From: Heterotrichella gracilis
Taxonomy: Eukaryota > Sar > Xanthophyceae > Tribonematales > Xanthonemataceae
DNA length: 64,000 nucleotides
Assembly: GCA_032358255.1 (NCBI GenBank)
Contig: JAULBX010003777.1
Location: 62,001-126,000, forward strand
Direction of reading: 5' to 3'
Shown here: in pieces, positions 16,310 to 59,300 of the stretch
Position numbering within the stretch: position 1 is the first letter of the stretch
How the letters are laid out: the number at the start of each line of letters is the position of its first letter
Notes under the pieces: model-generated
What the model was told of the DNA's origin: nothing
Databases searched by the model: none
What the model saw: the letters and a program-made list of their open reading frames with translations, nothing else
Translations under genes and position numbers: made by a program

Positions 16310-16615
16310 ACCTAAGTCCCTCCATGTCCTGCCCCCACCTACACCTCACACCGTGCCACCAAGTCCCTGCCAAACACCTCTTCCTCCCTCATCAACCTCT
16401 TCTGCTACACGTCACTTATGCCCATGCCATACACCCTGCTGTCCTCCCCTCCCTCCCCTCCTACACATCGCTTATGTCCCTGCAATACATGCACACCCTG
16501 CCCTCCCTCCATCTCCTCCCCTCCTCCACGCAGTTAATCATTTTCCAACCACCCTGCCCACCCTCCCCTCCTACACGTCGCTAATGTCCCTGCCAAACAC
16601 CTTTCACCTCCCCTC
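16310..16615. repeat. Degenerate tandem array of the NDH2 gene's coding end
   Basis: Immediately 3' of the NDH2 stop codon, the last about 35 coding bases (read on the minus strand: [13 protein letters not shown]) recur at least three more times. Recognisable units contain CTACACGTCGCT or close variants near 16429, 16470 and 16571, separated by C- and T-rich spacers. They are direct copies of the exon edge, increasingly diverged away from the gene. Confidence 0.75.
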
Positions 16616-56351: not shown

Positions 56352-59300
56352 CTATGTGGTGCCGTTGGCCCCCGCCCCTGCCCCTGCCCCTGCCCCTGCC
56401 CCCGCCCCTGCCCCCGCCGCCCCTGTGCCCCTCCTGAGCTCCATGAGCGCTGCCTCCAGCCACGCGTTCTGTGCCGACCACTCCTCTAAGGTGGCGCGCA
56501 GGCGGTGGTTCTCACGCAGGTGCTCCTCGCGCTCCTCCTACAAAGACATGCATAAACGTTAAGGGTCGTGAATGAAGCAGCGGAGTGCGTGGCTCTACCC
56601 TCCTACCTGCAACCCTACACCCCACAACCCTTACCCCCCACCCTCCCCACCTGCAGCAGCACCACCTCCACCTCCCTCTGCTCCCCCCAGCAAACACCAA
56701 AAACCATACGCCGGTGTGGTGGCGTATTCATCTGGTGTAATTGCCTCCCTCTGCTCCCCCCAGCATACCCCAAAACCCTAAAACCCCCCGCCCCCACCTG
56801 CAGCTGCGCCACCTCCGCCTCCCTCTGCTCCAGCCCCGCATAGCACCGCGCGCAGTCCCGCTGCAGCGCCCCCCGCTCCGCCGCCAGGGCCGCCACCTCA
56901 GCGCCGCGCGCCGCCAGCGCGGCCTCCAGGTCAGTCAGGTAGGCCGGCGTGGCGCCAGGTGGCGGCGCCAGGGCGCGCTGCAGCGCCGATTGCAGTCGCA
57001 GCACTGTGCGGCACAGGTGGTCGCAGTGTCGCTGCAGGTAGCGGAGGACCTCGCCCTGGGCCTCGACGACATCCCCGGGTTTCCTGCGGGGGGGTTGGGG
57101 ATTAGGGTTGGTGATCGCAATCCTGCGGGACGGCTGGGGATGTTATTTTTAGAGCTAGTGATCGCAGGGTTTGGGAACATTTGGGATTATGATTTTAGTT
57201 TTATGGGATCGCAGAATTTGGCACTGTACAAGTAGGCTGGCTTGGTGCCAGGTGCATCACATGCCCCATGCGTCTGTATCCTGCTGCTTGCTCAAGCGCT
57301 GCGACTGCAATCGGCGGTGCAAGGCTCGCTGTACCATCGATTGCAGTGGCAGAACATGAACAGGCAGCATGATACAGACGCATGTGACACAGGATGCAGG
57401 TCCAGGCGCAGCAGAACGCAGGCCCGGCAGCGATGCAAGCACACAGGACGCAATCCCCAAGCCTATGGGTTTGCCAGCGCCACCGCCCAGAGTCTACGGA
57501 ATTGGCACAAAGATTCCAACTCCAGAATCCCTGGATTTTCTGGACAGACGTGGAAATATTTTCGCATTTGCGCACCATGAGTCTGCTTCTGGCGGCATGT
57601 ATGTGGTTGATTGCAGGTGGAGAAGAGCATCGGGCAGCCTCTGCACCTTGGCCAGTTTGTGCACCTGCAGCGTGTTAATAAATAAATAAATAATTTATCA
57701 ACTACGCAGCCTGTCCCTGAGCAGGCACGTTGGCGAGGCAAGAGGCAAGAAGCAAAGAGAAGGCAGTCGCCTACTGCCCACTATTTCCCCTACCTGCAGC
57801 ATGTAAAATAGTAATAATAACAACAACAATAACAACAATAAATAACAAGATACCTGTAGCGTGTACAGCAGCGCAAATGCGCAGGCTCCCAGGGATTGGA
57901 AGCCGATGATCACAATCCCCGTCAGCAGCGGGGGCACCCCCGGGCCGTCGTGCCTGGCCCCGCCCCGCTGCCACAGCCACTGGCTGGCCAATAGGAGGGC
58001 GGCGCAGCCGATGGAGACAATGGTGGCGGGCACGCGCTGCAGGGCAGGAAAATTACAAAAATAAATTAAAAAATACAAAAAAGCGAATTATACAGCAAAT
58101 CATACAGCAAAAGATCGAAAAAAGCGAATCAGCTCTCAGCAAAAACACGTGTAATGAAATCAACAAACAAGTCTAATAAAAATAAAACTACGATTTTTTA
58201 AATAGAAATACAGGTAAATACAACTTTTTTACTACACAAATGATTCATCCATGCAGCCTGAACACAGAGTAAGACAGGCACCTTTCCCCCTGTCCACCAC
58301 CACCCCTACCTGCAGGGGCGCTGCTGCTCGGTACACCTGCAGGAAGCCAGCCCTGCGCTGCAGCCGGTGGCGGTGCACCAGCCAGGCCTGCAAGCCGTAG
58401 GCCAAAGCCAACAGGACCACCTCGCCGGTAGCCTGCAAGGGGGGGGGGGGAGGGGGCATTAAGACCAGGGGAGGTTGCTGGCCATGGGTGGGTGGGGGCA
58501 GGCTCCCGCGTGGCGTGTGGTGGTCTCATGAGGCACTGACTGATAAGACGTTGATGGCGGTGTGGTGCGGCGTGGGGTGGTGCGCTGCAGTGTGGTGTGC
58601 CCGACCTTTGTCGATTTGAAGCATGCCGTGTACAATGGAACATGTACAGCCCAGTGCAGGGAGCCGCCCTGGCGAACAACAAAATAATATAATATATAAA
58701 AGCCAGGGCATGGATCGCCAACACGAAGGATGTTGGAGTTTTCTCCCCTTGGCTTTGAAGGGTTTGGGGCTTAGGGTTCTCTTACCTTGGTTTTGAAGCA
58801 GCACAGCGCCTGCCCATCCGGGAAGCACAGTGCGTCCGACACCAGCAGCAGCAGCGGCAGGTGCAGGCCAGCAAACAGCCACACCACCCACAGGGTGTGC
58901 AGCGGGGTGGCGCGGGTCTGGCCGGGCTTGGGCAGCAGCGGCTCCGCAAACCTGCGGTGCACCGCGGCATGGAGGTGTGGCAGGTAGGTGTGGGTATTGC
59001 GCGTTTGTATAGGAGGGCTCGAATGTATCAAACAATTATACATCATGATACAGTTAAGTCCTCCTGCCTGTAAATTTGGAGGTTGGCTGGAATGCTACAT
59101 ACATATGGAGTGGCATAAATGGCCCTCCTGGGACCCCCCGGGCAAAGGCATGTATGGGGCTGGCAGCCTTGCAGCGCCTTTATGATGGGCAGGACTGCAC
59201 GGCGCCAATAGTGGTGGTTGCATCCCACATGGGCGGTGCGAATGACTCCAAGGTGGTGTGGGTGGTGGTGTGGTTAGTGGAGGGGGGTGAAGGGGGTGGT

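Follow-up and report, generated by a model that had tools for sequence, protein, structure and literature searches.

Why should the introns and 3΄ flanks of protein-coding genes carry diverged copies of the edge of the neighbouring exon? The question is raised by a 64-kb stretch of the genome of the alga Heterotrichella gracilis (the window: bases 62001-126000 of contig C40, in a genome of 68.5 Mb and 903 contigs), where such copies, here called echoes, had been described in eight genes. Our analyses confirm that the echoes are real. The pattern extends well beyond the window, is not confined to splice sites and has telomeric filler as its signature. The reading we propose, to which we give a probability of about 0.48, is that echoes are the scars of one recurrent local duplication with telomeric filler, probably made by repair of staggered breaks and kept where the harm is small.

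In the window, 27 of 206 exon edges are echoed, with 37 echo segments, close to the original prediction of more than 25 echoes at 26 edges. Eleven of the echoed edges fall in the joint MPC1/NDH2 model, two in Claspin, one in DUF3700, six in NSE4, two in the carrier, three in the PME-1-like hydrolase and two in TMEM192. The cysteine-rich model at 585-15160, previously singled out as free of echoes, indeed has none, and none is seen at the scored edges of an unnamed model at 33814 or of the TRAPPC10 model. A second sample, bases 100001-300000 of contig C2 (200 kb; stretch numbering is contig position minus 100000), was analysed in the same way, and the statistics given below are based on these 264 kb plus pattern counts over the whole genome, which contain overlapping hits within single arrays. 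As had been claimed, the copies are direct: 64 of 309 donor edges have a direct echo, against one inverted and four reversed, and 43 of 309 acceptor edges have a direct echo, against four inverted and two reversed. An edge was called echoed when its local-alignment score exceeded 13.0, the 99% point of random pairings with 260-bp zones; the edge scan of the window used zones of up to 350 bp, where chance is somewhat above 1% per edge.

These edges come from a self-written gene finder trained on both samples, which has a sharp donor and acceptor profile and gave 39 models, 10 for the window and 29 for C2. A light-harvesting protein encoded in the C2 sample matches antenna chains of photosystem I, the best of them from green algae. 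Pfam domains were found in seven of the eight window models that were scanned (MPC and NDH2, DUF3700, Nse4_C, mitochondrial carrier, alpha/beta hydrolase, TMEM192 and TRAPPC10), Claspin and the cysteine-rich model being left out of the scan. The MPC and NDH2 domains fall in one model, perhaps joined wrongly, and the names Claspin and PME-1 are carried over from the original prediction. Models of this sort are least reliable at gene ends. They also contain some error because certain echoes resemble coding sequence and were called as exons (NSE4 44321-44368, and an adenylate-kinase-like gene in C2). In the latter gene, named from its sequence, a 101-bp exon segment is duplicated at 94% identity (L011:1116-1394, that is C2:121116-121394), and the gene finder took the copy as extra coding sequence.

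Local duplication was also recovered with no gene models at all. A scan for duplication pairs at offsets of 20-500 bp with a fixed score gave 58 local direct pairs for the window and 195 for C2, against none in each of three dinucleotide shuffles of the former and none in one shuffle of the latter. When pairs were thinned to independent clusters (28 in the window, 102 in C2) and compared with random relocation, those joining an exon edge to an intron were enriched in both samples (13 against 3.3 expected in the window, 34 against 9.5 in C2), so that repeats as frequent away from edges, the outcome said to speak against the original prediction, were not what we found. Pairs joining exon interior to intron showed no enrichment (4 against 4.4 in the window, 18 against 14.9 in C2). 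Those within introns numbered 6 against 10.7 and 22 against 31.9, respectively, and intergenic pairs 2 against 5.1 and 10 against 25.4. An assembly artefact is an unlikely source of the echoes because most copies have diverged. One 83-bp pair of 99% identity, at L021:2470 (C2:222470), adjoins an unread gap and is possibly an assembly effect.

The original description was incomplete in one respect: it overlooked the telomere-like DNA that lies between many of the copies. Degenerate TTTAGGG or CCCTAAA lies in this space, and TTTAGGG is the telomere motif of the alga. Six units of it, (TTTAGGG)6, begin no more than a few bases into contigs C70, C140, C526, C609, C717 and C770, in one shared telomere-like orientation, and contig C626 codes for a telomerase RNA-binding domain (E 4.8e-13). 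The motif occurs 41 times in the window, where 7.1 are expected. Genome-wide, (TTTAGGG)2 has 5,629 matches, overlapping hits and contig-end arrays included, compared with 5 for the backward pattern, and TTTTAGGG doublets number 107. Among pairs with a spacer of at least 10 bp (49 of 58 in the window, 166 of 195 in C2), telomeric sequence covers 0.122 of the spacers in the window and 0.103 in C2, against random means of 0.029 and 0.030 and maxima of 0.083 and 0.057 over 500 relocations. At least 13 bp of telomeric sequence is found in 41% and 36% of the spacers, respectively, against 11% and 10% at random, and near 13 of the 27 echoed window edges.

Tract and echo go together. An echo is present at 27 of 65 donors with a tract and 38 of 244 without (random pairings 10/924), and at 16 of 48 acceptors with a tract and 29 of 261 without (10/926). 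In a large minority of cases, the anatomy is D - telomeric tract - D, where D stands for a coding exon end together with some adjoining bases (from a few up to a few tens), repeated in direct orientation. The same anatomy recurs throughout the 264 kb, and genome-wide by the pattern counts, which upholds the idea of one repeated process; not every gene is affected, as tracts are absent from all scored edges of 9 of the 39 models. The claim that decay increases away from the exon was not confirmed, a steady fall of identity with distance being seen in none of five ladders. Tracts of both orientations share a cluster in 5 of 58 cases in the window and 32 of 193 in C2 under looser clustering. As for the predicted order of G then C within one spacer, no spacer holds 13 bp of both orientations, and 2 of 27 neighbouring runs are mixed. 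Permuted telomere motifs gave 3-14 tracts compared with 162, too few for a comparison of positions.

Where do the tracts lie? Of the 251 found in the 264 kb, 208 are intronic, 36 intergenic and 7 exonic, the sequence itself being about 49% intron, 26% intergenic and 25% exon. In introns of at least 250 bp, 38 of 70 donor-side tract centres fall between +15 and +45, and the next interval, +45 to +90, holds 3; acceptor-side tracts are more spread out, with 22 of 65 at 15-45 and 12 at 45-90. The same placement is visible genome-wide without gene models. For the donor-like word CAGGTGNG, there are 271 cases with a C-rich tract after a gap of 0-25 and 63 after a gap of 40-65 (299 and 74 for G-rich tracts), whereas the non-donor word CAGCTGNG gives 58 at a gap of 0-25 (the two words occur 144 and 98 times in the 264 kb). 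A C-rich tract precedes TGCAGG 596 times at a gap of 2-27 and 248 times at 60-85. Genes differ in tract frequency (chi-square p 5e-5 over 31 models with at least four introns), and the 1145-aa cysteine-rich model has no tract at 42 scored edges (21 introns of at least 120 bp). Neither GC content at third codon positions (GC3) nor coding score, used as proxies of expression, was significantly related to tract frequency per gene (p 0.17 and 0.23).

So strong a positioning raises the possibility that the tracts came first, were kept or favoured at exon edges, perhaps for a role in splicing or expression, and then, through their fragility, seeded local tandem duplications of the exon end next to them. 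In yeast, interstitial telomeric sequence raises rearrangement rates (PMC11626172). Furthermore, of the 28 echoed donors that have a tract between the copies and could be scored, 14 have a further tract after the echo, against 212 of 1659 background windows. C-rich tracts also prevail at acceptors (32 against 9 G-rich), where they could act as a polypyrimidine tract, although we read this dominance as selection because TTTAG resembles an acceptor. The even orientation at donors (28 G, 27 C) speaks against a role at the RNA level there, and splice-site scores do not differ with and without tracts (p 0.51 for donors, 0.70 for acceptors), a result on which we also rejected tracts as compensation for weak splice sites. 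The other 14 of the 28 echoed donors have no tract after the echo, echoes occur without tracts, and tracts follow stop codons too. We consider this order of events unlikely, though it is the most likely of the rival readings.

The edges at which there is nothing to splice bear on another explanation. The last coding exon is echoed in the 3΄ flank in 16 of 35 models (random pairings 22/1190; none inverted, three reversed), whereas no echo was found upstream of the first coding exon in any of 34 models (random pairings 11/1122). Stop edges thus exceed donor edges (Fisher p 0.0024) and start edges fall below acceptor edges (p 0.013). Tracts lie 3-65 bp past the stop in 7 of 35 models, and one of 34 models has a tract upstream of its start. 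At position 35711 of the C2 stretch, the coding end with its stop codon is followed after ten bases by a telomeric tract; then come a copy of coding end and stop, ten near-identical bases, and tract again. In NDH2, whose C-terminal domain is complete, there are four copies of the 3΄ end and no telomeric tract. Since stop edges have echoes and no splice site, splicing is not required, and the anatomy first given in terms of splice sites was incomplete. The proposal of a process acting at exon boundaries is supported as a statement of location and not as one linked to splicing. A mechanism tied to splicing or RNA, in which protected pre-mRNA ends, polymerase pausing or R-loops direct breaks to exon-intron junctions, would suit the intronic rather than intergenic position of the tracts and the edge-reaching copies, which extend into the intron by a median of 8 bases. 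It has to face the higher rate of the same anatomy at stop edges and the lack of any effect of relative intron rank (0.52 against 0.51, p 0.84), and we regard it as quite improbable.

Some stop codons lie inside telomeric repeats, formed by the TAG of TTTAGGG or the TAA of CCCTAAA, at the 3΄ ends of models at C2:139748 (L012:9748) and C2:257033 (L024:7033). The MPC1 part may likewise stop inside such a repeat (window 22897-22932). At its exon 22933-23081, the supposed donor edge may in fact be where MPC1 stops, because the frame, if read through, ends in TAA within the telomeric tract.

Could the echoes instead be remnants of the birth of introns? Duplication and insertion at exon borders recall published intron-gain models, in which a tandem duplication or insertion inside an exon makes the intron. 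Such an origin predicts copies of the far exon. A looser test did find these above chance (donors 7/65 with and 16/244 without tracts; acceptors 10/48 and 24/261), as expected when 260-bp zones cover most of a typical intron. In a strict test, with 120-125 bp at each end of introns of at least 240 bp (n = 257), the end of the upstream exon recurs at the far intron end in 2 introns and the start of the downstream exon at the near end in 3, compared with 4/514 for a random partner, the chance level; the adjacent exon instead scores 46 and 30. Mid-intron echoes of either exon number 28 and 18 of 257. The copies derive from the adjacent exon and so do not record intron birth, and stop-codon edges have no intron to be born. 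The far-exon prediction being unmet, we rejected gain by tandem duplication and hold any such origin to be very improbable indeed. Introner elements were also set aside, as the copies are locus-specific in the printed examples and in the adjacent-exon test, with only the telomere motif in common, although no all-against-all comparison of introns was made. Duplication near exon borders is shared with both models. The copies described here are of the adjacent exon and create no intron, unlike those of tandem-duplication intron gain, and the copied sequence varies from locus to locus, unlike that of introners.

A different concern is that duplications arise everywhere, and a conserved coding copy keeps the pairs at edges recognisable for longer. 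Differences between echo and exon, sorted by codon position of the exon copy, are 93/779, 82/776 and 152/773 (0.119, 0.106 and 0.197), and this third-position excess is what a conserved exon and an unconstrained echo should give. Pairs that contain an exon would therefore stay detectable longer; by a hand estimate, the gain is at most about 1.6-fold. Pairs of at least 95% identity are less edge-biased (5 edge/intron against 11 intron/intron), and pairs are scarcest in intergenic DNA, which has no conserved sequence. We had first adopted pure ascertainment from these pairs of at least 95% identity and dropped it as the sole cause after splitting pairs by spacer. Among all spaced pairs, the young ones are 15 edge to 7 intron-only and the older ones 37 to 7. 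In addition, the excess of edge over intron-only pairs relative to expectation is 5- to 7-fold, far above the detection gain, and the positions of tracts do not depend on the detection of copies. Ascertainment as the full account is improbable, and it may hold for part of the signal.

We return to the reading of echoes as repair scars. Tracts and copies occur immediately outside the coding sequence, at donors, at acceptors and at stop codons, and not at start codons. A staggered break filled in on both sides would duplicate D, and telomeric DNA may be added or captured before the ends are joined; the break repair and any part played by telomerase are both proposed steps. Events within coding sequence would be lost, and those leaving a spare copy of low harm would be kept. 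A spare copy might do little damage in a 3΄ untranslated region (UTR), some through extra splice sites and most through an extra start codon, and we infer that the edge order stop > donor > acceptor > start follows this expected harm. Later exchange among the repeats could build the ladders. Breaks that start inside exons and reach tens of bases might yield the peak at 15-45 bp, although this is a guess.

Several observations weigh against this reading. If telomerase had primed on a copy, the 5΄ end of the G strand should abut the primer copy. Among 45 spacers, 20 fit, 22 do not and 3 tie; within 4 bp the figures are 17 and 25, and the Wilcoxon p of 0.048 lies in the wrong direction. Simple telomerase-primed addition onto the copy thus failed, which leaves capture of telomeric DNA or a more complex history equally likely. 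Donors without a tract are echoed as well, in the 38 of 244 mentioned above. The tract found after the echo at half of the scorable donors means that many loci are not one clean insertion, and so reflect more than one event or amplification as a unit. Tract-bearing introns are no longer than the others (367 and 380, p 0.33). In this one genome, no empty site was encountered. For pairs that have a spacer with telomeric sequence, the ratio of edge to intron-only is 5:6 among the young (identity of at least 0.92) and 18:1 among the older; this edge bias grows with age, so survival or detection may account for part of it, in line with the ascertainment view. Finally, the tight packing at coding edges has no explanation from a filter for harm alone. 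Retention where copies are tolerated, one of the two causes offered originally, fits the ranking of the edges and leaves the pile-up of tracts at 15-45 bp from donors unexplained; selection alone would see all three kinds of edge directly, yet such a filter makes no peak.

This targeting is the point that could make the finding more than a variation of a known type. A bolder possibility, which we think doubtful though worth stating, is that a genome-wide process recognises the outer coding edge (donor, acceptor or stop) at the level of DNA or chromatin and, having broken it, adds telomeric repeats and duplicates the coding end in the outward direction. If so, introns and 3΄ UTRs would grow outward from exons.

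Table 1. Echoes and associated telomeric tracts in the window (positions of the window; values of identity between echo and exon unless stated).
Feature	Position	Strand	Remarks
NDH2 3΄ coding end (exon 16616-16780), four-echo ladder in 3΄ flank	16363..16603	-	no telomeric tract
NDH2 ladder members	16571-16603, 16461-16489, 16405-16440, 16363-16379	-	identities 0.97, 0.90, 0.86, 1.0 (17 bp)
Exon 16967-17049 start, echo upstream of acceptor	17090..17125	-	identity 0.83
Degenerate telomeric tract between exon 16967-17049 and echo	~17063-17092	-	spacer telomere coverage 0.47
Exon 17483-17651 donor end, two echoes (17186..17347)	17287-17347, 17186-17227	-	identities 0.83, 0.86
Exon 17483-17651 acceptor-side start, echo	17711..17736	-	identity 0.88
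Exon 18021-18115 donor end, echo, telomeric tracts between	17909..17936	-	identity 0.89
Exon 18436-18571 donor end, short echo, no tract	18345..18365	-	identity 0.90
Exon 19685-19826 donor end, echo	19601..19628	-	identity 0.93; copy spans exon -28 to intron +6
Degenerate TTTAGGG tract filling most of gap to exon 19685-19826 echo	~19628-19665	-	
Exon 20224-20349 donor end, echo, no telomeric tract between	20076..20162	-	identity 0.74
Duplicated intron segment beside acceptor of exon 21884-22023	22033..22136	.	identity 0.96; intron-only pair, no exon echo
Three perfect TTTAGGG units opening outer copy of 22033..22136 pair	22092-22112	.	
Exon 22466-22574 donor end, echo, telomeric tract between	22395..22430	-	identity 0.81
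Exon 22933-23081 (MPC1 part) end, echo	22823..22879	-	identity 0.83; telomeric tract 22897-22925 between
Exon 22933-23081 acceptor-side start, two echoes	23204..23359	-	identities 0.78, 0.80
Claspin donor 26179, few exon bases, donor and intron duplicated at 26248-26281	26170..26281	+	outside the 27 echoed edges
CCCTAAACCCTAAA between Claspin donor 26179 copies	26204-26217	+	
Claspin exon 29873-29950 start, echo	29788..29818	+	identity 0.85
Claspin 3΄ coding end (32156-32431), weak echo in 3΄ flank	32561..32631	+	identity 0.69
DUF3700 3΄ coding end, echo	39967..40012	+	identity 0.74; AACCCTA immediately after stop codon
NSE4 exon 43639-43909 donor end, echo, CCCTAAA tracts between	44023..44077	+	identity 0.91
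NSE4 acceptor and exon start, three copies, TAGGGT tracts	44160..44498	+	middle copy called extra exon by gene finder
NSE4 exon 44459-44607 end and intron start, duplicated at 44682-44739	44577..44739	+	identity 0.91 (ungapped)
Three copies at acceptor, separated by CCCTAAA arrays	44755..44905	+	spacer telomere coverage 0.70
NSE4 exon 44893-45063 end and intron, 104-bp duplication, TTTAGGG-like tracts inside	45003..45272	+	identity 0.88 (0.92 exon part)
Last NSE4 exon (46093-46233) start, four echoes	45845..46062	+	edge scan
NSE4 3΄ coding end, weak echo in 3΄ flank, telomeric tracts between	46250..46337	+	identity 0.65
Carrier exon 49461-49637 start, weak echo	49291..49339	+	identity 0.72
Carrier exon 49461-49637 donor end, weak echo	49757..49783	+	identity 0.79
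Hydrolase exon 52477-52606 donor end, echo, flanked both sides by TTTAGGG-like tracts	52393..52423	-	identity 0.81
Part of 52393..52423 echo also matching start of model exon 52259-52288	52393-52409	-	identity 0.94
Hydrolase exon 53658-53804 donor end, three echoes, telomeric tracts	53312..53555	-	edge scan
TMEM192-like 3΄ coding end, echo in 3΄ flank	56307..56342	-	identity 0.78; G-rich, low complexity
TMEM192-like exon 56798-57083 donor end, echo, telomeric tract between	56743..56767	-	identity 0.89

The window also holds repeats of other kinds. Near-perfect tandem repeats with short spacers of 2-4 bases (8474-8527, 43155-43200 and 61309-61358) are probably a separate class made by a different process. 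Within a Claspin exon there is a tandem duplication at 25962-26041, with an in-frame period of 42 bp and 96% identity over 23 bp. A perfect 40-bp inverted repeat with a 9-base loop lies in an NDH2 intron (19325-19413) and was found at a single genome location in one DNA search, and a second large hairpin, at 57253-57398, has 69-nt arms of 78% complementarity, 8 nt apart.

What do these results add to known systems? Part of the intron and 3΄ UTR sequence is a decayed copy of the neighbouring exon. The results as a whole join three usually separate subjects: how introns are built up, small tandem duplications and interstitial telomeric DNA. Should the 264-kb sample be typical, telomeric scars would number about one per kilobase throughout the genome, and existing sequence would hold a dense natural archive of them. 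No account of telomeric repeats at coding edges together with copies of exon ends was found in the titles and abstract openings of the open-licence papers listed. Interstitial telomeric insertions are one close parallel: the alga's own telomere repeat is present at internal sites, and the target is duplicated at the junction. Mammalian insertions at double-strand breaks (PMC2246262, 2007) likewise consist of own-telomere tracts at internal sites, and target duplications accompany 6 of the 130 rodent insertions and 4 of the 25 primate ones. Unlike these, 27 of 65 tract-bearing donors of the alga have a detectable exon copy, and its 251 tracts in 264 kb lie beside coding edges.

The copies themselves are direct, local and tens of bases long, as in fill-in duplications (direct against inverted, 64:1 at donors and 43:4 at acceptors). 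Tandem duplications in rice were reportedly described by Vaughn and Bennetzen in 2014. In mammalian cells, CST and Pol alpha-primase, a complex that also fills in telomere ends, fill in breaks with 3΄ overhangs and produce small tandem duplications (PMC8355091), which, like the echoes, are direct, adjacent and tens of bases long. Telomeric filler and tight placement at coding edges are features of the alga, not found in the part of this fill-in account that we consulted.

Plant telo boxes offer a third comparison, being, like the tracts, short telomere motifs within genes. For these, Gaspin et al. (2010, PMC3022908) report that 5΄ regions and the first two introns are favoured, and they propose the action of telomerase on free 3΄ ends at transcription-linked breaks. 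The alga differs in showing no effect of intron rank and a tract at a single one of 34 start edges, and its tracts are accompanied by copies of the exon end.

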